Shown piece after piece: positions 7,216 to 42,330 of a stretch of DNA of 42,330 nucleotides. The stretch lies in IMG/VR virus record IMGVR_UViG_3300010397_000027, positions 1-42,330 of that record; one strand, given 5' to 3'. The position numbers and the translations under genes are program-made. Below the pieces are notes generated by a model. That model was not told where the DNA came from. It saw only the letters and a list, made by a program, of their open reading frames with translations, and did no database searches. How positions within the stretch are numbered: the first letter of the stretch is position 1; each line of letters begins with the position of its first letter. This DNA is from a virus.

Positions 7216-7633
7216 TATTTTTCTCCTTGATATAGTCTACTGCTTTTAATAAATTTGAAGTATTTTCTTTAAAATTCCCTATTCCCATATTACAACCTTT
7301 ACAAAGTAAGCCTCGTATTTTTCCTGTATTATGATTGTGATCAACAGCTAAACGATGACCCATATAACTATGAGAAATTCCACAAATTAAGCACTTATAA
7401 TTTTGTTGTTTCAATATACTTAAATACTCATCTAATGTAATTCCAAATCTAGCTTTTAATTTAGTATTTGCAGTTGATAGTCTACCACTTTCGCTTTTCC
7501 ACCATTTAGAGCGTCTAACTCTTGTACATTCTTTACATTCACTTTGATACTGAGTTAAACGTTTAGAATAAAAATGAACTAATTCTTTTTCTTGTTTACA
7601 AGAGCTGCAATTTTTAGTGGTTGCCTTGAGCAT
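7208..7633 (-). CDS. endonuclease VII-like Holliday junction nuclease
   Basis: The 141-aa protein has an N-terminal CSSC...CKEC zinc-binding set, then YKCLICG, and the signature LAVDHNHNTGKIRGLLCKGC followed by NMGIGNFKEN. This is the phage recombination endonuclease VII pattern (HNH-type catalytic DHxH). It would resolve branched DNA before packaging, or act as a free-standing homing nuclease. It overlaps the holin gene by 20 bp upstream and the ssDNA-binding-like gene by 8 bp downstream. Confidence 0.9.
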   Translation of the reverse strand: MLKATTKNCSSCKQEKELVHFYSKRLTQYQSECKECTRVRRSKWWKSESGRLSTANTKLKARFGITLDEYLSILKQQNYKCLICGISHSYMGHRLAVDHNHNTGKIRGLLCKGCNMGIGNFKENTSNLLKAVDYIKEKNNG

Positions 7634-8045
7634 TTTTTATCTTCTCATACGTTCTTAAACTACCGAGTCCTAAAACTCCCAATAAAACAGGCATTATTTC
7701 TCCCATTGAAAGACTTGGTAAATTAGTAACTGGATGATTAACTGCAAAAGAAATAAAAACTAAAAATGGTTGTAAAACGTATGTCCATGCAAAAGCAGAG
7801 GCACATACCCACATTATAAATGGCCTAGCACCAGCGACAAATAAACTTGAGGATTTTGCCTCTTCTTTGTTAATATCAATTTGACCTTGATCTATTTGAG
7901 TAAATAGTTTTAATAATTCAGTTTCATTTTCTGCAAGTTTTAGAGCTAATTCAGCCTTAGCCTTTTCTCGTTCTGCTGTATTAGGTATAATTTTGTCAAT
8001 GACATTTCCGAGTATTGGCAATAATGTTGTAATAAGTGGAATCAT
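7614..8045 (-). CDS. holin, GTA/3TM superfamily-like
   Basis: The 143-aa protein begins MIPLITTLLPILGNVIDKI, followed by a charged helix (EREKAKAELALKLAENETELL), then ARPFIMWVCASAFAWTYVL and a third hydrophobic segment EIMPVLLGVLGLGSLRTYEK. This order matches the three-TM holin family found in gene-transfer agents and many phages. It would permeabilise the inner membrane at lysis. The SD GGAGGATCTTACT is strong. The M15 peptidase lies 11 kb away on the same strand. Confidence 0.8.
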   Translation of the reverse strand: MIPLITTLLPILGNVIDKIIPNTAEREKAKAELALKLAENETELLKLFTQIDQGQIDINKEEAKSSSLFVAGARPFIMWVCASAFAWTYVLQPFLVFISFAVNHPVTNLPSLSMGEIMPVLLGVLGLGSLRTYEKIKNAQGNH

Positions 8046-8061: not shown

Positions 8062-8478
8062 TTATATGTCCAATTCCGACCTTTTACTACCATATTTCTT
8101 GTAAACTTTTCGGCGTATTCGTTGCAATATAGCTGAAATTCGTTGCTGTGACACTTGCAATTTACTAGCAAGTTCAACCTCACTATAGGGATATCTTAGT
8201 AGCAACAAATAGACCTCGCGTTCTCGTCCTTTTAAACCCTCTCCGATTTCTTTAAGCGACTCTAGTCTTAAAGCCTTTTCATCACTATCGGAATCAGACC
8301 ACGGCGCATTAGCATCACTTAATGTATCAGGGTTAGCACGTCTAGACTCACTTGGGGCGTCATCTTTAGATACCGCACTATCCCAGTACTTAGATTTAGA
8401 AAACTTCTCATCTGATAGTTTATTAATTCCAAATTTATCTTTAATTATTTGATGTATATTTTTTGACTCTTTTTCCAT
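8062..8478 (-). CDS. sigma-70 region 4-like HTH protein
   Basis: Residues 85-130 of this 138-aa protein read EVELASKLQVSQQRISAILQRI, a helix-turn-helix of the sigma region 4 kind, preceded by GLKGREREVYLLLL. The N-terminal half is acidic and low in complexity (Ser/Asp/Glu). It lacks regions 2 and 3, so it is not a full sigma factor. It may redirect host RNA polymerase to late promoters or bind an operator. It is the best candidate for a transcription regulator in the window. Confidence 0.75.
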   Translation of the reverse strand: MEKESKNIHQIIKDKFGINKLSDEKFSKSKYWDSAVSKDDAPSESRRANPDTLSDANAPWSDSDSDEKALRLESLKEIGEGLKGREREVYLLLLRYPYSEVELASKLQVSQQRISAILQRIRRKVYKKYGSKRSELDI

Positions 8479-8839
8479 TTGATAATACCTCCATTTTAGG
8501 CATAAGTAACCATATCTTTACTTTTCTATTTCTAAAATTCTTATCAAATTCTTTTTCTTCCGCATAAGTTTGAACCCATACATCAATATGATCTTTATAC
8601 CGTTCGTGCATTGTATCATTAATTACTTTAAAACCAATACCTTCTATATAGACAAAATCACCATAGTTAAAAGGTCCACCCCATCGTTTAAGCAGATTCC
8701 GACTAACAGCGATACCATGAGGATGTACCCTTTCACCAATAGACGTAGTATAAGGGCTATCATCAGTTTGACTAGGAATGGATCTATAAGAAGTTATGGT
8801 CATCGTGCCTATTAAAACGATGGTTAAAATCAGATTCAT
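8441..8839 (-). CDS. secreted 3D (double-psi beta-barrel) domain protein
   Basis: The 132-aa protein has an N-terminal hydrophobic helix (MNLILTIVLIGTMTI) and then a small beta-barrel: GIAVSRNLLK, FNYGDFVYIEGIGFKVIND and DHIDVWV. This is the 3D/RlpA-like fold used in peptidoglycan-cleaving transglycosylases such as MltA. The aspartates in VIND and IDVWV fit the 3D signature. It may cut or bind the host wall in the periplasm during lysis or early infection. SD AGGAG is 10 bases upstream. The C-terminal region has many basic residues. Confidence 0.7.
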   Translation of the reverse strand: MNLILTIVLIGTMTITSYRSIPSQTDDSPYTTSIGERVHPHGIAVSRNLLKRWGGPFNYGDFVYIEGIGFKVINDTMHERYKDHIDVWVQTYAEEKEFDKNFRNRKVKIWLLMPKMEVLSNGKRVKKYTSNN

Positions 8840-10200: not shown

Positions 10201-10230
10201 TATATAGAGGATGTTTAGACTTTATTTCAA
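10201..10230 (-). promoter_or_regulatory. candidate sigma-70 promoter, leftward
   Basis: TTGAAA (10225-10230) and TATATA (10201-10206) are separated by 18 bases on the minus strand, overlapping the end of the collagen-like gene. It would feed the downstream tiny genes through the structured leader. Confidence 0.4.
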
Positions 10231-10917
10231 GTCTTTCAGTATTAATCTCGTTTCTGGTTTAGTAATTTTATCTGCTTTCAATGGTTTATCATTAGTTCGA
10301 TAAGCCCGAAGCAATGATTTTAATTCATCAATTTCTTTTTCTTCAAAACTCTTTCCAAGTTTGTAACCAACTAAAGCCCCGAAAGAATCATTATGTTTAT
10401 GTTTCACGTCATAATTATCAAACACATGAACTTCAAACTTTCTAGAATCCAATACACGAACTGTACCACCTAGAATAGCCTTTGTTTCGCCAAGTCTATG
10501 AACTTCATTTTCAAGATTATCAACCCGATTATTAGTAGTATTGATATTTTCTTGTAAGAGTTTATCAGCATCAATCCGACTATTTGTTTCATTAGTTTGA
10601 TTATTGCTAATGGTATTAAGAGTTTCTTGATCTATAACACCTGTTTCACCTTGATCTCCTTTATCACCTTTGTCTCCTTGTAGACCTTGCTCGCCTTGGA
10701 TTCCTTGCTCTCCCTGTTCTCCTTGTGCGCCTTGAAGTCCAGGAATGGAGCTAGGTTGCGCCCATGTACCAGCCGTATTTCCAGAGATACCATTATAGTA
10801 AAGGATATCGCCTTGCGCTGGTGATTCCCCTGAACTAAGAGTATCAGTCACATTGTTAGCGAATACGATACCGCTAAATCCGCCAAACAAACTAAGTATA
10901 AGTATTACTTTTCTCAT
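10222..10917 (-). CDS. secreted collagen-like protein
   Basis: The 231-aa protein has a clear signal peptide (MRKVILILSLFGGFSGIVFA, cleavage near residue 21). A region with a YYNGISGNTAGTW segment follows, then about a dozen Gly-X-Y triplets (GLQGAQGEQGEQGIQGEQG and on) at residues 58-92. A coiled coil (NNRVDNLENEVHRLGE) and a globular C-terminal part come next. Collagen-like repeats usually make trimeric shafts. Most phage collagen-like proteins are fibres, but this one is in the leftward non-structural block with a Sec-type signal, so export to the host envelope is inferred. SD AAAAGGAG is strong. Confidence 0.8.
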   Translation of the reverse strand: MRKVILILSLFGGFSGIVFANNVTDTLSSGESPAQGDILYYNGISGNTAGTWAQPSSIPGLQGAQGEQGEQGIQGEQGLQGDKGDKGDQGETGVIDQETLNTISNNQTNETNSRIDADKLLQENINTTNNRVDNLENEVHRLGETKAILGGTVRVLDSRKFEVHVFDNYDVKHKHNDSFGALVGYKLGKSFEEKEIDELKSLLRAYRTNDKPLKADKITKPETRLILKDLK

Positions 10918-33854: not shown

Positions 33855-35051
33855 GTGGCTAAATATCAAATTGAAACTGAAAATGGTACATACGAAATAG
33901 AAACAGAAGAGCCAGCGGCTAAATTTCCTCTTGATCCGAGTGTTATGAATGAACCTGGTTTACAGGATGTAAGTTTAACTCCTATTACTAAACCTGATTT
34001 TGAACAAGCAGGAGAAAATATTGCTACATCTAAATTTGGTCAGAAACATCCAGTTTTAGGAGCCGCAATAGGAACTCCTGTTTCAATGCCTGAAGAGTTT
34101 ATTAGCGCAGCGACAGGATTAAAAGCTGTTCCTGAAATGGCTGCAGGAGTTAGGGGAGCTGGATCTTTAGTTAAACGGCTTGGTAAAAGTTTACTTAGTG
34201 GACCTAATGCTGAAGAAATTTCTGCGGCTCAACAAGCCCTTAAAAATTTACCTATTAAAGAACGTGGAATAAGAAATAGTTTAGAAGAATTAAATACTGC
34301 AGCACAAAAAGGTTTTGAAACTTTTGATCCAGAAATTGAAGCTGCTAAGCAAAAACTCAAAGACCTACCTTTAAAATATAAACAAAAACAATCAATTATT
34401 GAAGAACTCGATAAGGCAATTAGACCTCAAATAGGAAAAGCCGAATCTGAAGCAGGATTAGCGATGAATAAAATTCCTGAAGCAGCTAAAGATACCACTG
34501 ATTTTGCTAATACAATGAAAGCCATTTCTGAAAAATCATCCGAGGAACTTTTAACTTCAATGGAAACTAGTGGACTTCAAAACCTCAAAAAAATTGCACA
34601 AGTTACAAAACGCGGAAATTTGCTTCCAGAAGAAGAAGCTTTTATTAATAAAGGTGTAGCTAAAATTGATGAAGCAATAGCTAAAGCACATCCAAAAGTT
34701 GCAGAAGAACTAAGTAAGTTTAGAGAAATTCAAGATGTAAAAACAGGACTTCCAAAAGAAGCAAAGGCTGAGAAAGAAAGACTAATCAGTTTAATTAATA
34801 AACTAAAGTCCACACCAAAACGTGCGCCAGTTGGAGAAGAATTACAAAAATTTAATGAGATTCAGGACGCCCTTAAATCCTTACCAGAAGAGACAAAAGC
34901 TAAGAAAGAAGCTTTAATGAGTCTTGTACAACGTCTAAAAACTGAGGCTAAAGGTAGCACATCTGGTAAAGTTAGAAACCTGATTGGAACTGCATTGAGA
35001 TATGGCACAATTGGTGCTGGTCTTGGTGGGATTCATAAGTTGATGAAGTAG
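33855..35051 (+). CDS. internal virion / ejection protein 3 with helical repeats, 398 aa
   Basis: GTG start at 33855, 1 base after the previous stop. Two paired helical repeats are visible: residues 121-149 with 160-189 (QALKNLPIKER, QKLKDLPLKYK), and 284-319 with 328-363 (KFREIQDVKTGLPKEAKAEK, KFNEIQDALKSLPEETKAKK). The C-terminus is Gly-rich (YGTIGAGLGGIHKLMK). A long alpha-helical protein in this position is probably ejected with the DNA. Confidence 0.6.
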   Translation: MAKYQIETENGTYEIETEEPAAKFPLDPSVMNEPGLQDVSLTPITKPDFEQAGENIATSKFGQKHPVLGAAIGTPVSMPEEFISAATGLKAVPEMAAGVRGAGSLVKRLGKSLLSGPNAEEISAAQQALKNLPIKERGIRNSLEELNTAAQKGFETFDPEIEAAKQKLKDLPLKYKQKQSIIEELDKAIRPQIGKAESEAGLAMNKIPEAAKDTTDFANTMKAISEKSSEELLTSMETSGLQNLKKIAQVTKRGNLLPEEEAFINKGVAKIDEAIAKAHPKVAEELSKFREIQDVKTGLPKEAKAEKERLISLINKLKSTPKRAPVGEELQKFNEIQDALKSLPEETKAKKEALMSLVQRLKTEAKGSTSGKVRNLIGTALRYGTIGAGLGGIHKLMK

Positions 35052-35561: not shown

Positions 35562-35725
35562 TTCTCTTTCACCTTCACTGGTTTCCCATTTATCCACTTT
35601 CCCACTGTTTCAAGCATCAAGAAAATTTCACCTGATTTAAACACATAAACACCATTTCTCGTGGTGTCTTTTACCGCGACCTGATATCCATTCTCTACTT
35701 CTTTAATATTAATTTCTTTATTCAT
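35558..35725 (-). CDS. last leftward gene, 55 aa
   Basis: I start at MNKEINIKEVENGYQ (35723-35725), after ATGGAGGGAAT. The protein has VKDTTRNGVYVFKSGEIFLML. Its stop overlaps the converging stop by 3 bases. Function unknown. Confidence 0.65.
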   Translation of the reverse strand: MNKEINIKEVENGYQVAVKDTTRNGVYVFKSGEIFLMLETVGKWINGKPVKVKEN

Positions 35726-35987
35726 ATTCCCTCCATTTTTCCTTTCCAGGTTCACAATCACTCCAAATAAACTTATACCGATTGCCATAATTATCAATTA
35801 GTGTGTGATTGCGAGCTGTCGCGGCCATCTTACACATATCCTTGGTTCCTTCACTAAGACTAGGATTACAACAATCATAGGTCCATGTCTGTTTTATGGC
35901 ATTTCGATCAGCAGGAATTGGTCCCTGTAATCCTGAACATCCTGTCAAAACAGTTACAAATACACCAAAACTAATATAAGGTTTCAT
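35718..35987 (-). CDS. lipoprotein, 89 aa
   Basis: The N-terminal MKPYISFGVFVTVLTGC is a lipoprotein signal with lipobox LTGC (lipidated Cys at residue 17). The mature part has YDCCNPS, CKMAATARNHTLIDNYGNRYKF and EPGKEKWREYE. Three other Cys residues (39, 40, 52) may form disulfides. Periplasmic outer-membrane or inner-membrane localisation is expected. It could be an outer spanin or exclusion protein; no specific evidence. Start couples by ATGA to the gene above. Confidence 0.75.
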   Translation of the reverse strand: MKPYISFGVFVTVLTGCSGLQGPIPADRNAIKQTWTYDCCNPSLSEGTKDMCKMAATARNHTLIDNYGNRYKFIWSDCEPGKEKWREYE

Positions 35988-36121
35988 CCAATTAAAAGCC
36001 TTCGATCACAACCACTACAATATTGCCATTTAATGCCCTTTTTGTCAGCTTCAACAAATTGGTACTTATGGCCATTTTTACATGGTTTTGACTCTTTAAC
36101 GTCCTTAGCCTCGTATTTCAT
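35984..36121 (-). CDS. small Cys-containing protein, 45 aa
   Basis: ATG at 36119-36121 after GGTGGGTAAAAG. The product begins MKYEAKDVKESKPCKNGH and carries CSGC near its end, a likely zinc site. Stop couples by ATGA to the lipoprotein gene. Confidence 0.6.
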   Translation of the reverse strand: MKYEAKDVKESKPCKNGHKYQFVEADKKGIKWQYCSGCDRRLLIG

Positions 36122-36161
36122 CTTTTACCCACCTAGAAAACAATCTTGCCAAATGAAAACC

Positions 36162-36174
36162 ATTGATAATCAAT
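36162..36174. promoter_or_regulatory. second palindrome, like the early operator
   Basis: ATTGATAATCAAT (6-bp arms around A) differs by one base from ATTGATAGTCAAT at 13489. It lies in the 60-bp gap at 36122-36181 on the leftward strand, one of the few non-coding places in the block. No good -35/-10 pair is seen around it. Confidence 0.45.
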
Positions 36175-36181
36175 AATCAGA

Positions 36182-36415
36182 TTAGTCGAAAATAGGCTTT
36201 AACCCACCACGTTTCCATTGAACAAATCTATTAACATCATACCAGTAATAACCACATAGTCCATTAGAAAGAATTGGACAAGTTTGGCCTCCAATCCAAT
36301 CTATAAATTCTACTTCAGGAATATTGAAAAACTTTAATACTCCAAGGACTTCCGAGTAAGAAAGTCCCATGTGGTCGTCAAAAACCACTTTCCTGTGTGC
36401 TTTACGTCGTACCAT
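36182..36415 (-). CDS. hypothetical protein, 77 aa
   Basis: SD AAGGAGAACATC precedes ATG. The protein has VRRKAHRKVVFDD, then LKFFNIPEVEFIDWIGGQTCP and WYDVNRFVQWKRGG. No family recognised. It overlaps the next upstream frame by 82 bp. Confidence 0.65.
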   Translation of the reverse strand: MVRRKAHRKVVFDDHMGLSYSEVLGVLKFFNIPEVEFIDWIGGQTCPILSNGLCGYYWYDVNRFVQWKRGGLKPIFD

Positions 36416-36555
36416 GATGTTCTCCTTGTAAATTTAATATTAGTTTCAGGATTACTAGTTGTGTAAGTATACCACCAATTTGTATTACTTTCAAGGGGTT
36501 GTATTACAGTTGGTTTACACCAACATTTTTTATTTAATTTATGTTTTCTTTTCAT
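36334..36555 (-). CDS. hypothetical protein, 73 aa
   Basis: ATG at 36553-36555, overlapping the end of the phosphatase-like gene. The N-terminal half (KHKLNKKCWCKPTVIQP) resembles a small phage Cys-containing protein. The C-terminal third is inside the neighbouring gene, so it is less certain. Confidence 0.5.
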   Translation of the reverse strand: MKRKHKLNKKCWCKPTVIQPLESNTNWWYTYTTSNPETNIKFTRRTSWYDVKHTGKWFLTTTWDFLTRKSLEY

Positions 36556-36922
36556 TTAAAATCTCCTGATATCGCATCCGAATGATAGTAACTAACCCTT
36601 TATCGCGGTATTCAAAACTATCCCCAATTCTAAGATTGTGGACAGGCTTATTAGTTCTTTCTTTGAGTTTAAATTGTTGGTATTCATCCATACAAACAAT
36701 CTCATCAGCCCATTCTAAAAGAACATCATCAACTGGAATTAAGGCATGACCAACATCTATTCCTGCTGAACGAGTGTTAAAATTAAATGGTTCATTAGAA
36801 AGAATCCAAGCTGCGGTTGGAGAACGTAGTAGTCCTGCAGAGCAAACACAAAGAACTCGTTTATATTTACCTTGATATGGATTCTTGGTATTCCACTTTC
36901 TATTTAGATCATCTTCATTCAT
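36539..36922 (-). CDS. protein tyrosine phosphatase-like (COG4551-type)
   Basis: The 127-aa protein has VLCVCSAGLLRSPTAAWIL, where C27-x5-R33-S34 is the phosphatase loop. It continues with FNTRSAGIDVGHALIP, LEWADEIVCMDE, and VHNLRIGDSFEYRDKGLV, matching predicted low-molecular-weight tyrosine phosphatases of the COG4551 kind. It might dephosphorylate a host protein or act on nucleotides or arginine phosphate. Start couples by ATGA to the small membrane gene. Confidence 0.8.
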   Translation of the reverse strand: MNEDDLNRKWNTKNPYQGKYKRVLCVCSAGLLRSPTAAWILSNEPFNFNTRSAGIDVGHALIPVDDVLLEWADEIVCMDEYQQFKLKERTNKPVHNLRIGDSFEYRDKGLVTIIRMRYQEILNEKKT

Positions 36923-37059
36923 TTCTTTACCTTTCTTAATATTCGTCTAATTCGTTGCCTATCATATTCATATTTAAGTAAAACATAGCTTTTCCAACTA
37001 ATATATGCCTCAAACACGACTGCAAGGAGTATTGCGGCCTCCAAAATTGTGTCCAACAT
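36919..37059 (-). CDS. small membrane protein, 46 aa
   Basis: SD AAAGGAGATAAAT precedes ATG 37057-37059. An N-terminal hydrophobic helix (ILEAAILLAVVFEAYI) is followed by a basic tail (RQRIRRILRKVKK). The SD lies in the end of the previous gene. Confidence 0.6.
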   Translation of the reverse strand: MLDTILEAAILLAVVFEAYISWKSYVLLKYEYDRQRIRRILRKVKK

Positions 37060-37061
37060 AT

Positions 37062-37181
37062 TTATCTCCTTTGTAACCAGCTAAATAACTTATCAATTAG
37101 CAAATCGCAAATTCCCATAAATAAGACTACTCCTAGGAATCCTGCTCCAATAATGAGAAAGGGCCTTATTTGACTTCCCAT
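37062..37181 (-). CDS. small membrane protein, 39 aa
   Basis: ATG at 37179-37181 lies inside the upstream 46-aa gene. The product has one helix (FLIIGAGFLGVVLFMGIC) and ends WLQRR. Single-TM proteins like this occur repeatedly in the array. Confidence 0.55.
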   Translation of the reverse strand: MGSQIRPFLIIGAGFLGVVLFMGICDLLIDKLFSWLQRR

Positions 37182-37306
37182 ATCTCTTCTACCTTTTCAA
37201 ATGGCAAGACTTCTTTAAATTTCTTCTTTGCCTCTTTTTCATTTTCGGCTGTAACTTCAGTTTCATAAACAACTACGTGAGAATAAGACACGCTAAATTT
37301 TTTCAT
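37166..37306 (-). CDS. hypothetical protein, 46 aa
   Basis: SD GGAGGAATTAA precedes ATG 37304-37306. The sequence (MKKFSVSYSHVVVYETEV..., then EKEAKKKFKEVLPFE) has a small beta-alpha pattern seen in many phage micro-proteins. Confidence 0.6.
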   Translation of the reverse strand: MKKFSVSYSHVVVYETEVTAENEKEAKKKFKEVLPFEKVEEIWEVK

Positions 37307-37490
37307 TTAATTCCTCCACTTTGATAAATGTCCATCCTTTATTATCTATTAAAATTGCATTACAATTGGTTCGTAAAGCATGAAGTTCTAATGAATCCAT
37401 GATTGCATCAGTTAAACTCAAATCATCTGTTTCTAGATTAATAAGACCTTTGGGTGTAATTGAATAAGTTGGTTCTTTTTTCTTGCTCAT
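37293..37490 (-). CDS. hypothetical protein, 65 aa
   Basis: The 65-aa product has a beta segment (TYSITPKGLINLETDD), a helix (LTDAIMDSLELHALRTN) and a beta end. Start after the preceding stop with AAAGGAC. No family recognised. Confidence 0.6.
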   Translation of the reverse strand: MSKKKEPTYSITPKGLINLETDDLSLTDAIMDSLELHALRTNCNAILIDNKGWTFIKVEELNEKI

Positions 37491-37491
37491 T

Positions 37492-37893
37492 TTATAGTCC
37501 TTTTAGATACTCAGGATAATCAGAACAGCACAAAATTTCTTCTCGAAGATGCGGCCATTTTTTAACAGCTTTCTGATAAAAATATCGGTATCCTGATATT
37601 TGTATCGGAATTACGATACGGTTAAGTAAAGGCATTACATACTCAGAGATTTTCAGATCAAGACTCCAAGGCCACCATTTAGGAATCCAACAGTATCCAG
37701 GTCTAAAAATACAATGGAATGAACTCCATCCTAGATGACAGTAAACTCTAGCAGTACCAAATTTTTCCTTGGTTTGTGTGACTCCAACTCTAAACCATTT
37801 TCGGAGATTGTGACCTATAAATTCTGCAGCATCATCCACTTGGTTAAACAGTTCATCTGAAAAGTCCTTATCGCCCCAGGAGTGCATTATCAT
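37492..37893 (-). CDS. conserved phage protein, 133 aa
   Basis: The segment RVGVTQTKEKFGTARVYCHLGW recurs in hypothetical phage and bacterial proteins. The rest is Trp/Tyr-rich (GYCWIPKWWPWSLDL) with a helix near the end. Start couples by ATGA to the upstream gene. Function unknown. Confidence 0.7.
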   Translation of the reverse strand: MIMHSWGDKDFSDELFNQVDDAAEFIGHNLRKWFRVGVTQTKEKFGTARVYCHLGWSSFHCIFRPGYCWIPKWWPWSLDLKISEYVMPLLNRIVIPIQISGYRYFYQKAVKKWPHLREEILCCSDYPEYLKGL

Positions 37894-38123
37894 GGCCCCT
37901 TAGCTGATTCCCAACCATTTTTAACTTGATCGCGGCTAGGCAATTGAGTCTTAAATGGTCGCCAATCTGCATATTTATTTGTATTAAATTCATATCTATA
38001 ATTGTTACTAAAAACTCGACAAAGTAACTTACCATCTTTAATATCAACTAATTGGTAAACCCAACTTCCATCAGCTCCATGAACATCAAATAATTGTCCA
38101 ATGTGTTTTCTATTTAACCTCAT
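37890..38123 (-). CDS. hypothetical protein, 77 aa
   Basis: I start at MRLNRKHIGQLFDVH (38121-38123), after TTGAGGGAGTTAAAA. A beta-rich small domain (GSWVYQLVDIKDGKLLCRVF) is followed by a basic helix. No family recognised. Confidence 0.65.
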   Translation of the reverse strand: MRLNRKHIGQLFDVHGADGSWVYQLVDIKDGKLLCRVFSNNYRYEFNTNKYADWRPFKTQLPSRDQVKNGWESAKGP

Positions 38124-38271
38124 TTTTAACTCCCTCAATTCTAAAGGCTTGTTTCATTTTATCACTCAACTCGTTTCTCTCTCGTTGGGATGCTTCTGCA
38201 ATCGCAAGTAACTTCTCTTGTGTAGTAGCAAGACGTTCTAAAGCTAATATAGCTCGTTCTTCAAATGTCAT
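38110..38271 (-). CDS. helical protein, 53 aa
   Basis: ATG at 38269-38271 after TTAGGAGATATT. The product is one long helix (EERAILALERLATTQEKLLA, then SQRERNELSDKMKQA), probably a coiled coil. Confidence 0.6.
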   Translation of the reverse strand: MTFEERAILALERLATTQEKLLAIAEASQRERNELSDKMKQAFRIEGVKNEVK

Positions 38272-38279
38272 AATATCTC

Positions 38280-38399
38280 CTAATTTAATTTTAAAATGGT
38301 TTCTAAAGCCCATTTAAGACAAAATCCAACAGCCGCACCAACTCCTAAACACATTAAAAGTATTCCACCTATATCTACTGTTCTATCTAATCTACCCAC
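38280..38399 (-). CDS. small membrane protein, 39 aa
   Basis: GTG at 38397-38399 after CAGGAGATTAGT. One hydrophobic helix (IGGILLMCLGVGAAVGFCL) with a short basic end. The stop lies upstream of the next SD. Confidence 0.55.
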   Translation of the reverse strand: MGRLDRTVDIGGILLMCLGVGAAVGFCLKWALETILKLN

Positions 38400-38400
38400 A

Positions 38401-38559
38401 CTAATCTCCTGTATGTTCTACTAATTCTTTTAGTTTTTTGGTTATAATTAATTGAGATTCTAACATAGCAATTAAACAATCAAGAACATTTGGTACACCA
38501 CCAAATTTATACATATTTTGTGTATTAACTTTAAATTCTGCTTCATTTTGATAGTCCAT
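38401..38559 (-). CDS. hypothetical protein, 52 aa
   Basis: I start at MDYQNEAEFKVNTQNMYKF (38557-38559), after AGAGGTCTAAC. A helix (LDCLIAMLESQLIITKKLKEL) is at the end. No family recognised. Confidence 0.6.
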   Translation of the reverse strand: MDYQNEAEFKVNTQNMYKFGGVPNVLDCLIAMLESQLIITKKLKELVEHTGD

Positions 38560-38560
38560 G

Positions 38561-39001
38561 TTAGACCTCTTGATATTCTTTATATTTTGGTACTTCAAGA
38601 TGCGGAAAATCTTTAATTGATTTCCAATCGCCACCCCAAGTTAAACTATATCTTTTGGCTATTTCTCTAAGTGGATAATACCACTTTTCGTCCCAAAGAT
38701 ATTTGCCAGTTTGGTTATCAACTACCGCCACATCTATAGCTCGGCTAGGATAATAATTATGAGCACCGACCAACTCACTACCATTAACATTAGTAACAAT
38801 TTTTGCTTTATCTTGGACATACCATTTTCCATCCGTACCCATTGTTCGGCCTTGCTTATATAGTTCAAACTGCTCTCTTGGCGTTCGGTGTGTGGTAGTA
38901 AGCGCGAGATACTTTCCAGGACTCGCCTCAATAAAATCACGTTTTATCTCCTCCCATTTATCACGAATATATTTACATGAATCTTCAATTTCTCTACTCA
39001 T
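38561..39001 (-). CDS. M15-type peptidase, probable endolysin
   Basis: The 146-aa protein has THRTPREQFELYKQGRTMG, then GSELVGAHNYYPSRAIDVAV (H and D of the SxHxxGxAxD-type zinc site, in the form GAHNYYPSRAID) and GGDWKSIKDFPHLEVPK with the final HLE ligand. This is the peptidoglycan LD-/DD-carboxypeptidase fold of phage endolysins. There is no signal peptide, so a holin is needed. It would cut cell wall peptide stems at lysis. Confidence 0.82.
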   Translation of the reverse strand: MSREIEDSCKYIRDKWEEIKRDFIEASPGKYLALTTTHRTPREQFELYKQGRTMGTDGKWYVQDKAKIVTNVNGSELVGAHNYYPSRAIDVAVVDNQTGKYLWDEKWYYPLREIAKRYSLTWGGDWKSIKDFPHLEVPKYKEYQEV

Positions 39002-39096
39002 TATCGACCCCTTGTTAAAAAATTATACACATCTCGTCTAAAATCATTCCATAAAACTGAAATCAATGCCTTAATCCAACCTTTAGGACAAACCAT
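39001..39096 (-). CDS. tiny basic protein, 31 aa
   Basis: ATG (39094-39096) follows the previous stop directly, and the stop overlaps the endolysin start (TAATG). The product (VCPKGWIKALISVLWNDFRR...) is amphipathic and basic, like a short membrane-active peptide. Confidence 0.45.
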   Translation of the reverse strand: MVCPKGWIKALISVLWNDFRRDVYNFLTRGR

Positions 39097-39285
39097 TTAA
39101 GAACCTGTTTTCTTACTAAGAACATTAACTCTAGCTTCCATTAAACGAACTTCAGCCATTAGTCGGCCAATGCGCTCTTCATAGTCATGAGCGGCATCTT
39201 CCCATCCTTCAGTGTATCCAGTATTACGACCATCACTGAATCCTGCTTCATATCCAAGACCATAACTATCATCATCTATCATCAT
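39097..39285 (-). CDS. hypothetical protein, 62 aa
   Basis: The Gly/Asp/Glu-rich N-terminal part (YGLGYEAGFSDGRNTGYTEG) resembles small phage proteins with repeated GxxxG. The rest is a coiled coil (ERIGRLMAEVRLMEARVNVL). It overlaps the upstream gene by ATGA. Confidence 0.6.
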   Translation of the reverse strand: MMIDDDSYGLGYEAGFSDGRNTGYTEGWEDAAHDYEERIGRLMAEVRLMEARVNVLSKKTGS

Positions 39286-39497
39286 TGTGGTAATACTCCT
39301 GTTTGTTTATAGACTTTTTTAGCAAATTTAATTAATGATCGACCTTCATCACAAATATATTGAAAGTTATAACGAAGAAGAGGTTCACCAAATGGGTTTT
39401 TTAATGGTTTTGCGTGAGTCACAAAACGATATGATCGTTCTGCATTAGCCTCTTTCTTCATTACCCTTCTAATTTGTTTAATTTTACTTTGACGCAT
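39282..39497 (-). CDS. hypothetical basic protein, 71 aa
   Basis: The product (MRQSKIKQIRRVMKKEANAE... then CDEGRSLIKFAKKVYK) is basic with two helices and a short beta part. It may bind nucleic acid. No family recognised. Confidence 0.6.
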   Translation of the reverse strand: MRQSKIKQIRRVMKKEANAERSYRFVTHAKPLKNPFGEPLLRYNFQYICDEGRSLIKFAKKVYKQTGVLPQ

Positions 39498-39690
39498 CTT
39501 GAGTTTCTGGTAGCTCGTAATTAGACAATAAGTGCTTTGATAACGCCAAAACGCCTAACTGTTGTTGAATTTGAGCTTGTAATTTAACAACTTGTTCTTG
39601 TGCTTGTTTGATAATATCTTCAGCAGTTTTAACTTGTTTAACTAAAACAGCCTTATCAAATACTTCTAATACTTTATCCTTTTCGCCCAT
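39484..39690 (-). CDS. coiled-coil protein, 68 aa
   Basis: One long helix (EDIIKQAQEQVVKLQAQIQQ) with a short acidic end. It lies just after the serine protease gene and overlaps it by 17 bp. Confidence 0.6.
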   Translation of the reverse strand: MGEKDKVLEVFDKAVLVKQVKTAEDIIKQAQEQVVKLQAQIQQQLGVLALSKHLLSNYELPETQDASK

Positions 39691-40456
39691 AAGTCCTCCA
39701 ATATTTATAATTAAATTTAGGAAATGCTTTATCTAATCCTCGATAACGAGTTAAAAACTCAATAATCTGTCCCGATTGAACACTAAATCCTGCTCCCGTA
39801 AAAATTGGTGCATTAACGGGTGGAATAATAAAACTGTTAATTCCAACAAGTTCACCTTTAAGATTAAAGAGTGGTCCACCACTATTACCAGGATTAATAA
39901 AAGCATCACTTTGTGTGACATTATATCCTTCTTTAAAGTCGCGGTTTAAAGCACTAATAATACCATGAGTCACAGAAAAGTCTAAACCTAATGGGTTACC
40001 AACTGCAATAACCTCTTGACCAACTCGAAGTTTTCTTGGATCAGCAAGCCGAGCATAATTAGGAGTTAAATCATTTATATAAAGTAAGGCTAAATCTCTA
40101 CTAGTCTCACTAAAAAGAAGTTCAGCTCTATATGAGTATCCAGTATAAGTTTCAATATCAATAGCTTTAACAACTCCATGATTAAAAAGATGAGCACAAG
40201 TAAGAATGTGACCATTAGGACTAATAAATACACCGGCTCCAAGGTATCTGACTGTAGCAGTAGACTTTTTAATGTCTAATCCTTTTTGAGTAATAGTGAA
40301 TTGAAGTTCTTCAACAACTGCCGTAACTTGAACCATTGCTGTTTTTTGTACAGATTGTTCAGCAACTTTAACGAATCGTTCAGTTGAAGCACATCCCGAT
40401 AAAACTCCAACAATTAAACCCAATGCCGCTAATTTAAACCGCTTTGTAAGTGTCAT
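39674..40456 (-). CDS. lipoprotein trypsin-like serine protease (HtrA/DegP-like)
   Basis: I start at MTLTKRFKLAALGL (40454-40456), the second of two adjacent ATGs, because the first is too close to the GGAGA site. The signal has lipobox LSGC (lipidated Cys near 22). The catalytic triad reads ILTCAHLF (His89), SRDLALLY (Asp121) and NPGNSGGPLF (Ser182), with GNPLGLDFSVTHGIIS between. There is no PDZ domain. It is the HtrA fold, expected in the periplasm attached to a membrane. A phage-coded version could modify host envelope proteins, resist superinfection or aid lysis. Confidence 0.85.
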   Translation of the reverse strand: MTLTKRFKLAALGLIVGVLSGCASTERFVKVAEQSVQKTAMVQVTAVVEELQFTITQKGLDIKKSTATVRYLGAGVFISPNGHILTCAHLFNHGVVKAIDIETYTGYSYRAELLFSETSRDLALLYINDLTPNYARLADPRKLRVGQEVIAVGNPLGLDFSVTHGIISALNRDFKEGYNVTQSDAFINPGNSGGPLFNLKGELVGINSFIIPPVNAPIFTGAGFSVQSGQIIEFLTRYRGLDKAFPKFNYKYWRTYGRKG

Positions 40457-40667
40457 CATTCTCTCCTTTTCTCACTAACTTCCTATTTTTAATCCAGATT
40501 AATAAACTATTCAATACTCCAATGGCAATATAGAATTGAGTTCGTCGCCAAACTCTCCATTTAGAAGTTGACTCAAACTGATACCAATAGCCATTACGAA
40601 TTGCTAGCAAATCATGAACAGTAAGAACTTGATCATATTCAAATACAGGCCGTGGATCAATACTCAT
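40434..40667 (-). CDS. membrane-associated protein, 77 aa
   Basis: A soluble N-terminal half (FEYDQVLTVHDLLAIRNGYW) is followed by a hydrophobic segment (FYIAIGVLNSLLIWI) and a basic/acidic tail. It directly precedes the serine protease gene and overlaps it, so the two may act together at the envelope. Start shares one base with the previous stop. Confidence 0.65.
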   Translation of the reverse strand: MSIDPRPVFEYDQVLTVHDLLAIRNGYWYQFESTSKWRVWRRTQFYIAIGVLNSLLIWIKNRKLVRKGENDDTYKAV

Positions 40668-41347
40668 TATAGTCTACCTCCCTTCCAATTAAATCCGCAT
40701 TTAGTACAAACCATGCGTCTATATTGATTCTGTGCTGTAGCCCTAAGTCCTTTAGAATGAGCACGACCTCCACAAACTCTACACACTGATTCATCTCGAC
40801 TAACAATACTCCGAGGATGTTGATCCCAAACAGCCTTAATATGGTTATATACCCATTCAAGAACCAAAACATCCATTTTACAATGATGAGCAATATATTT
40901 TAGTGCTTTCCTGTCTCCTGCACTTGCATCAATCCATAAATTAAAGTCAATTGCAGTTTTCTCATAAGGACAATGTAAAGCCTTTAAAATGGCATCAAGT
41001 CGATTAGAGTGGAATTTAAGACGTTTCTTAGCAATACGCCAAGTATCAACTTGTTGTACAACTGGCATAGGTTTCATGCCATGAATTAATCGACGAGTTT
41101 GAAGAAATGGAATATCGTAATATTGACCAAAATGATGAACCACAATATCAGCCTCACTAAAAATTGGCTCGAAGGCTTTTAGTAATTCTCTGTCATCGGT
41201 AGTTTTAGATCCTGGATGGGTGCTTAAATCTAATACCTTTGCTGTTTTTTCATGCGCCCATTTATATCCAATTGCTAATGTATATCCAACTGATGCTGAA
41301 AGATTACTAGCTTCAATATCAAGGAAAAGTATCTTAAGCTGACTCAT
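40667..41347 (-). CDS. 3'-5' exonuclease (RNase H-like) with zinc ribbon
   Basis: I start at MSQLKILFLDIEASN (41345-41347), after AAAGGAGCCACAA. The 226-aa protein has D10-I-E12 (Exo I), HHFGQYYDIPFLQTRR (Exo II) and HHCKMDVLVLEWVY (Exo III), as in the YprB/DnaQ-like exonucleases. A C-terminal zinc ribbon has CRVCGG and CTKCGF. It may trim RNA or DNA ends, possibly with the RNA ligase gene it overlaps by 14 bp. Confidence 0.8.
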   Translation of the reverse strand: MSQLKILFLDIEASNLSASVGYTLAIGYKWAHEKTAKVLDLSTHPGSKTTDDRELLKAFEPIFSEADIVVHHFGQYYDIPFLQTRRLIHGMKPMPVVQQVDTWRIAKKRLKFHSNRLDAILKALHCPYEKTAIDFNLWIDASAGDRKALKYIAHHCKMDVLVLEWVYNHIKAVWDQHPRSIVSRDESVCRVCGGRAHSKGLRATAQNQYRRMVCTKCGFNWKGGRL

Positions 41348-41924
41348 TTGTGGCTCCTTTTGGTTTTTCATCTCCATCTATTGTCTTTTTAAACATAACT
41401 CCTGCGGCCTTATGATAAATTACAATACCTTCTGGTTTCATAAATCCAGGAGCAGCATAACTACCATTGCTTACCAGCCTTTGTAGAATTCTGTCAATTT
41501 CTCCTGTACCGAATTCTCCCTCCCATAATTTAGGGACAATAAATACGCATTGTGGCAATTCAACCAAATCTTTCGGAACTCGAAATAAACTAAACCGACG
41601 TTCAAATAATCCATATCCCCTCTGTATACCTAAACCCCACCACTCTCCAAAATGAGTACCGTCTCCAAGTTTAAGCAGCTCTTCTTTATTTTGATCCACC
41701 CAACGAGCAAATCCAAAATTATCACTTTGCAAATTGATAAACCGATTGCGACTCCCAACTGATACTATTTGGCCATCTTTGATTGTCAACTGAGCATTTG
41801 ACCCATCAATTTTTTCAGTAATTATACACTCTCTAGATAGTCTAGCAATTTTAGGAAATGATCTAAATTCTTGTACTTGAGGTAACTCAGATTCTATTCT
41901 TTCTGGTATATTTATTTCATTCAT
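41334..41924 (-). CDS. RNA ligase (Rnl2/DRB0094-like)
   Basis: The 196-aa protein has the adenylylation motif TEKIDGSNAQL (nucleotidyl Lys38), RNRF near 60, GEWWGLGIQRGYG (motif IIIa-like), EGIVIYHK (motif IV) and MFKKTID (motif V). This is the core nucleotidyltransferase fold of RNA ligases; no OB or C-terminal domain is present. It seals RNA breaks, perhaps made by host anticodon nucleases. No polynucleotide kinase was found, so 3'-end healing must come from elsewhere. Confidence 0.82.
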   Translation of the reverse strand: MNEINIPERIESELPQVQEFRSFPKIARLSRECIITEKIDGSNAQLTIKDGQIVSVGSRNRFINLQSDNFGFARWVDQNKEELLKLGDGTHFGEWWGLGIQRGYGLFERRFSLFRVPKDLVELPQCVFIVPKLWEGEFGTGEIDRILQRLVSNGSYAAPGFMKPEGIVIYHKAAGVMFKKTIDGDEKPKGATNESA

Positions 41925-42055
41925 GGTTGCGAGTCCTCCATCACATCTTCAATATAATCACACAAAATACAAGCGAAACATTGGTATCCATGCGCTGCAA
42001 GAACAAATTGAAGTTTATGCTCGATCCCTGGTGCTATACATTGTTCTTCTTGCAT
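41921..42055 (-). CDS. small Cys-rich protein, 44 aa
   Basis: ATG at 42053-42055 after AAAAGGAGAAAATC; the stop overlaps the RNA ligase start by ATGA. The product (MQEEQCIAPGIEHKLQFVL..., then CFACILCD) has four Cys residues that could form a zinc site. It starts inside the end of the HNH gene. Confidence 0.65.
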   Translation of the reverse strand: MQEEQCIAPGIEHKLQFVLAAHGYQCFACILCDYIEDVMEDSQP

Positions 42056-42330
42056 GATTTTCTCCTTTTATTCTCCTCAGCGGTCTTACTTCTATGACAC
42101 CCTTTACACAAGACTTGCAGTTTCTCCGTAGACACAAACAATCTGTCTCTATAATCATCCCAGGAACCCGACCACTTTTTTCCTGGTTCCACCACTGGCT
42201 CAATATGATCGACCTGTTTTTCGGATCGTTCAACAAGATTTCCACAAGCCTTGCACCTATATCGTAATCCAGTAGGGAGTTTTTCTTCCGAGATCTTAAC
42301 TGCATCTCTATAGGCGGTGCTCCATCGAAA
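42034..42330 (-). CDS. HNH endonuclease, C-terminal part (continues at 192)
   Basis: This is the downstream part of the gene that starts at 192. The reading frame leaves base 1 and re-enters at 42207 through the repeated 123 bases. It holds the CKAC, VDHIEPV and LCKGCHRSK motifs and ends with the TAG at 42034-42036. Joined length is 121 residues. The long minus-strand frame at 42015-42305 beginning MQLRSRKK is a different frame and is discarded. Confidence 0.85.
   Translation of the reverse strand, partial: FRWSTAYRDAVKISEEKLPTGLRYRCKACGNLVERSEKQVDHIEPVVEPGKKWSGSWDDYRDRLFVSTEKLQVLCKGCHRSKTAEENKRRKSCKKNNV
42208..42330. repeat. terminal direct repeat, right copy (assembly overlap)
   Basis: Identical to bases 1-123. 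Removing one copy gives a unique length of 42,207 bp and restores the HNH gene. Confidence 0.95.

Follow-up and report, generated by a model that had tools for sequence, protein, structure and literature searches.

A phage-encoded, HtrA-like serine protease with a lipoprotein signal and no PDZ domain is a near-constant gene of a phage family

Why would a phage carry, between its replication and endolysin genes, an HtrA-like protease with a lipoprotein signal? The question is raised by a locus in the window, by which we mean the whole stretch of 42,330 nt analysed here; it is an entire IMG/VR virus record (G000) with a podovirus-like gene complement according to its gene annotation. The earlier note had read the locus as a phage HtrA-like lipoprotein protease paired with a membrane protein. 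Sequence, predicted structure and conservation uphold the protease part of this reading but lend no support to the membrane-protein partner. The features concerned are listed in Table 1.

Table 1 Features of the window relevant to the protease locus (positions in nt)
Feature	Position	Strand	Evidence
261-aa HtrA-type serine protease lacking PDZ, with lipoprotein signal	39674..40459	-	Pfam, AF2 model, orthologues
Signal peptide (type II) with lipobox LSG/C23, residues 1-23	40391..40459	-	Sequence; Cys conservation
77-aa gene upstream of protease, 26-nt overlap; likely small soluble protein	40434..40667	-	Alignment A5, hydropathy, profile search
DNA polymerase exonuclease-subunit-like protein, same overlapping operon	40667..41377	-	PHROG 403 6.3e-40; RNase_H_2 2.1e-12
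68-aa helical (coiled-coil) gene downstream of protease, 17-nt overlap	39484..39690	-	Kept in G001, G021, G022, G023, G025
71-aa gene accompanying protease in G001, G021, G022, G023, G025	39282..39497	-	Gene-order comparison
M15 peptidase endolysin, downstream in protease block	38561..39001	-	PF13539 3.9e-09; PHROG 2649 endolysin 1.8e-17
Conventional holin	7614-8045		PF11351 2.9e-20
Replication genes	about 0.6-13.7 kb	-	
Structural genes	13.7-35.6 kb (13700-35561)	+	
Second minus-strand block, carrying protease	35.7-42.3 kb	-	

The protease matched the Trypsin_2 profile over its entire length (PF13365, E = 2.5e-29; 103.3 bits against a curated cut-off of 27.6; profile positions 1-144 of 144) and also the Pfam Trypsin model (E = 1e-11), as well as PHROG 11383 (9.9e-44) and PHROG 9683, annotated as "protease" (1.8e-20). 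The top NCBIfam model was of the Do/HtrA (TIGR02037) type, with a score far under the full-length cut-off. The start context of the gene is AAAAGGAGAGAATGATG, in which the AGGAG spacing fits the second ATG better. Alignment placed the catalytic triad at His90, Asp122 and Ser193 (in NPGNSGG), and these residues were unchanged in all rows of alignment A6. Thus, the intact Ser-His-Asp triad noticed earlier is real and kept in the family, with the nucleophile at Ser193; its former assignment to Ser182 was a miscount. The lack of a PDZ domain was likewise borne out: none was detected by Pfam in the 261-aa protein, and PF13180 (PDZ) matched 0 of 12 phage records, compared with 14 of 14 control genomes.

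Structure prediction and comparison with DegP and DegS, which the earlier note had suggested as a check, recovered the HtrA catalytic fold. The AlphaFold2 model, built from a 34-sequence alignment (mean pLDDT 87.6, pTM 0.80), matched the catalytic domains of DegP, DegQ, AlgW and DegS in Foldseek (E = 3.2e-18), with VIA-align Z values of 29.1 for AlgW, 28.8 for DegP, 28.7 for DegQ and about 27-28 for DegS, whether PDZ was present or not. Because the C-terminal PDZ is missing, we class the protein as HtrA-like rather than as a full member of the HtrA/Deg family.

Is such a protein likely to leave the cytoplasm? Its N-terminus, MMTLTKRFKLAALGLIVGVLSGC, has the classical form of a type II signal peptide, with a basic n-region, a hydrophobic h-region and L-S-G-C23, so that the lipobox signal reported previously holds; LSGC agrees with the strict consensus [LVI][ASTVI][GAS]C used in a survey of phage spanins, according to which the lipoboxes of phage lipoproteins can deviate (PMC6139136). 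Cys23 was present in all seven sequences of A6, each time preceded by a small residue, and an N-terminal Cys was found in 7 of the 8 long (at least 38 kb) family records, also in G025 (LLSC) and G029 (SIAC). Measured against the strict consensus, LSGC and LTAC fit, LGGC nearly fits, and FSGC, QTGC, FPSC and FQSC deviate; the N-terminus in G028 is hydrophobic without a Cys. Since a Cys or a hydrophobic N-terminus is kept across the relatives, export and anchoring look constant in the family, and lipid attachment nearly so. The proteases of G021, G022 and G023 contain a CX5C pair within the protease domain (A6), which fits an oxidising compartment. The residue at position +2 after the lipobox Cys is Ala in the window, which would direct the protein to the outer membrane under an enterobacterial sorting rule that may not be that of the host. 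A simple pattern scan, which can overlook spanins, revealed no other family-wide lipoprotein. A second small lipoprotein of 89 aa (35718-35987, minus strand, LTGC), a possible o-spanin or exclusion protein, occurs only in the window and G001.

A further question is whether the protease acts together with the gene immediately upstream, which the earlier note had described as encoding a single-TM protein. The overlap of the two genes is confirmed, and overlaps are frequent in this block (1 nt for exonuclease/77-aa, 17 nt for protease/68-aa and 14 nt for 68-aa/71-aa). The best 19-residue Kyte-Doolittle mean of the 77-aa protein was 1.16, under the usual TM cut-off of 1.6, and its five homologues also remained below this value (1.26, 0.77, 0.79, 1.48 and 1.03; the candidate segment in G021, for example, is RRFQFLVGVGVCNEMLHWLSHGKP). 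Hydropathy, the sole basis of this verdict, therefore lends no support to a TM protein; an amphipathic or re-entrant helix is conceivable. The arrangement of a two-component o-spanin, with an overlapping i-spanin bearing an N-terminal TM segment, was not found either, as neither the 77-aa protein nor any of its homologues reaches the TM threshold. No Pfam family was assigned to it. A profile built without G024 detected a homologue in that phage (E = 6.6e-5), and no Trypsin_2 match was found in its 43.9-kb record. With a partner that looks soluble and occurs without Trypsin_2, the proposed pairing lacks support; the 77-aa protein is probably a small soluble operon companion and not a membrane partner. 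The region of G024 matching the protease site (L089 3082-4188) encodes several small hydrophobic proteins, one of them PQ-loop-like by eye.

Comparison with relatives suggests that the window record is a circularly permuted genome: a single strand of G001 encodes, in this order, the DNA polymerase, the HNH protein, the exonuclease, the 77-aa protein, the protease and the endolysin. The promoter scan gave 28 sites against 26.5 in shuffles, without excess, so expression timing is not readable from promoter sites; terminator-like sites numbered 6 against 2.8 expected, including one within the 77-aa gene (40555-40538). The scan for tRNAs returned zero in the window. The earlier note took the phage to be lytic, which is not established: the window contains no PF00589 integrase, but tyrosine-recombinase genes with this domain are present in two relatives, G023 (L085 12441-13580) and G029 (34316-34750), so that a temperate lifestyle is possible for some members of the family.

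Is the protease a stray acquisition or a regular component of these genomes? To locate the family, capsid and terminase alignments served as independent seeds, and Trypsin_2 was sought afterwards. A trypsin-fold protease was found in all eight records of at least 38 kb with a terminase at least 44% identical (window, G001, G021, G022, G023, G025, G028 and G029); this set, in which record completeness is not certified, was drawn up once five carriers were known, the last three having entered via terminase or capsid alone. Since a census seeded without the protease found it in 8/8 long records, it is a near-constant family gene and not a stray one. Beyond this set, G026 (31 kb) encodes, immediately after an RNA ligase gene, a trypsin-like protein that is less closely related, contains GDSGGP and begins with a signal-like stretch, and Trypsin_2 had no match in G027 (29 kb), G030 (36 kb, terminase 43%) or G031 (41 kb, terminase 27%), nor in fragments of 9.6-16.6 kb, where absence says little. 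Between the window and G001, dN was 0.094 and dS 0.755 (dN/dS 0.125); the protease is under purifying selection. This ratio together with the Trypsin_2 E value excludes a chance ORF, and host contamination is excluded by the phage genes that flank the protease and by its presence in relatives.

The proteases of the window, G021, G022 and G023 are 45-57% identical. G025 stands apart, with a terminase 68% identical to that of the window and a protease just 31% identical, around which the 77-aa gene and the downstream coiled-coil gene are in place. These data suggest that the G025 protease was replaced or strongly accelerated; a tree test of replacement gave p-AU 0.070, short of proof, and its tail, DWQGLFDALGF, resembles the tail PWAGLLDALGF of G023. 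Because position, N-terminal Cys, triad and PDZ absence are all retained in G025 despite this divergence or replacement, the protease activity itself seems to be selected. At the endolysin position, close relatives carry unrelated enzymes (M15 in the window, G001 and G021, M23 in G022, DUF5675 in G023; sites compared: window 38561-39001, L084 9403-9822 and L085 9232-9630), while the upstream protease stays.

How far does this type of protease extend among phages? A profile search of IMG/VR yielded 70 loci, mostly in a group containing rhizobial phages, and isolates with annotated homologues include Rhizobium phage 16-3 and RHph_TM3_3_14B. These wider homologues are about 205-300 aa long and mostly possess an N-terminal signal or anchor, with a lipobox being rare. 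Among 60 loci examined, 26 had a lysozyme-family gene upstream of the protease, and in 46 the protease was followed by a conserved gene encoding about 430 aa; some rhizobial loci carry a small Rz1-like lipoprotein in addition to the protease. The tree set the window clade apart from both the rhizobial group and the bacterial HtrAs, which were also separate from each other, and a topology uniting all phage proteins in one clade was not rejected (p-AU 0.287). A comparable gene order exists in the distant phage G003 (28 kb), where HNH, exonuclease and RNA ligase genes are followed by one more gene, a small gene for a hydrophobic protein of 66 aa and the protease gene; no similarity was found between this 66-aa protein and the 77-aa protein of the window. 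Megablast of 36000-42330 against phages gave zero matches, and a scan of genome contigs with the protease returned just three Clostridia-type HtrAs and no host pointer. Several tblastn "phage" matches, namely those labelled Salmonella, Acinetobacter, Staphylococcus or Listeria and some from faecal records, probably represent bacterial DNA lying in phage records and were not counted as evidence from phages. In RHph_TM3_3_14B, the trypsin-like peptidase gene (L004 5887-6714) adjoins an annotated attL; lysogenic-conversion genes often sit beside att sites.

With the HtrA/Deg proteins (DegP, DegQ, DegS, AlgW; TIGR02037, PF13365), the window protease shares the catalytic fold, triad, GNSGG and, by prediction, export, and with DegS also a predicted membrane anchor. 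It differs in being phage-encoded, in lacking PDZ, in carrying a predicted lipid instead of a TM or soluble form and in scoring far under full-length cut-offs. The rhizobial phage peptidases (16-3 p036, RHph_TM3_3_14B, RHph_X2_25; PHROG 9683) are likewise small, phage-encoded and PDZ-less with an N-terminal signal or anchor; however, they are only 25-32% identical, form a separate tree group, rarely have a lipobox and have different neighbours. HtrA- or trypsin-like phage proteases have thus been annotated repeatedly, and the literature searched offered no explanation of their function. What is new is the PDZ-less lipoprotein form as a near-constant family gene persisting at one position despite divergence.

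What, then, could the enzyme do for the phage? We propose that an HtrA/Deg protease was domesticated by phages, cut down to its catalytic domain and given a lipoprotein signal. It would be expressed together with the replication enzymes from the overlapping operon upstream of the endolysin, exported and then tethered by lipid on the periplasmic face of the host envelope, where, without the PDZ brake, it would be active and cleave envelope proteins during infection. The likeliest gain would be that host outer-membrane or periplasmic proteins are removed or remodelled and the cell or its debris stops binding or admitting phages. The general mechanism, in which a protease anchored on the periplasmic side works on the envelope during infection, we consider probable; the explanation as a whole, including the removal of host envelope proteins against further phages, is evenly balanced in our judgement, and a specific role at the receptor or in superinfection is tentative. 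Nothing in the data points to a receptor as the substrate, and the small number of relatives with a strict lipobox and the missing Cys in G028 also weigh against the whole. Known exclusion lipoproteins are small, non-enzymatic blockers. The lipoprotein T5 Llp, a receptor blocker, is a precedent for superinfection exclusion by a lipoprotein; like T1 Cor, it is a phage envelope lipoprotein (PMC9586334), but both are small non-enzymatic receptor blockers without demonstrated homology to the protease. It is conceivable, if speculative, that the family uses envelope proteolysis as a standard infection step through a constitutively active PDZ-less HtrA lipoprotein, with receptor or envelope-tether proteins being destroyed in an enzymatic superinfection exclusion or a proteolytic disruption of the outer membrane.

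We rank the removal of envelope proteins, including superinfection exclusion, first, followed by an accessory function in lysis and by envelope quality control at a similar level, then by counter-defence and finally by virion processing. As a lysis accessory, which we regard as unlikely, the protease would act late in infection on the tethers between outer membrane and peptidoglycan, or on further envelope proteins, assisting or partly replacing spanins. It resembles spanins (Rz/Rz1 type) as a phage lipoprotein near lysis genes, and in every relative examined its gene precedes that of the endolysin by a few genes within one transcription unit, but it is a large folded enzyme for which no i-spanin partner was found, and its gene is coupled directly with those for replication enzymes, not with the holin gene. 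The association of rhizobial homologues with lysozyme genes speaks for a link to lysis; nevertheless, an Rz1-like lipoprotein coexists in some of those loci, where spanin replacement is thus not needed, and the window already encodes a conventional holin and endolysin. That the protease is the sole family-wide lipoprotein candidate adds to the case, which is lessened by a pattern scan able to miss spanins and by the 91 of 677 surveyed phages in which spanins were not found (PMC6139136).

We give a similarly low probability to envelope quality control or stress signalling, in which the enzyme would degrade misfolded exports or cut an anti-sigma factor, DegS-like without PDZ, until lysis. The structural likeness to DegP, DegQ, AlgW and DegS is suggestive, as is the predicted export of other phage proteins such as that encoded at 10222-10917; yet what is lacking is precisely PDZ, the substrate or signal recognition module of the HtrA family, and hosts usually possess HtrAs of their own. 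Cleavage of a host defence protein that sits in the periplasm or is bound to a membrane would suit a gene encoded with early/middle-type genes and recurring among unrelated phages, but no defence target was found and the PADLOC matches reflect the shared protease fold only; we consider counter-defence improbable. Maturation proteases are common in phages, but a head or tail maturation enzyme or particle-borne protease, an option raised by the earlier note as processing of a virion component, is the least credible reading, because the replication/lysis unit runs opposite to the structural genes and the protein has an export and lipidation signal.

The near-constant presence, throughout an uncultivated podovirus-like family, of a protease that keeps its position and its export/anchor signal even when strongly diverged argues that cutting of envelope proteins may be part of the normal phage cycle. 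If true, an enzyme would take on work that, among known phage lipoproteins, falls to stoichiometric blockers or to spanins.

Several minor observations concern neighbouring genes. The protein encoded at 10222-10917 (minus strand), sited among the replication genes, has collagen-like repeats (PF01391, 5.9e-07) and a signal peptide. Adjoining the holin gene, 8441-8839 (minus strand) encodes a 132-aa protein with a hydrophobic N-terminus and no Pfam match, which is present in 6/6 relatives compared, protease-less ones included. An RNA ligase gene (41334-41924 in the window) is shared with G021; at the corresponding site of G001 (L001 7759-8007) there is an unrelated 82-aa ORF in which similar terminal residues are kept (MNEINIP...KGATNESA).
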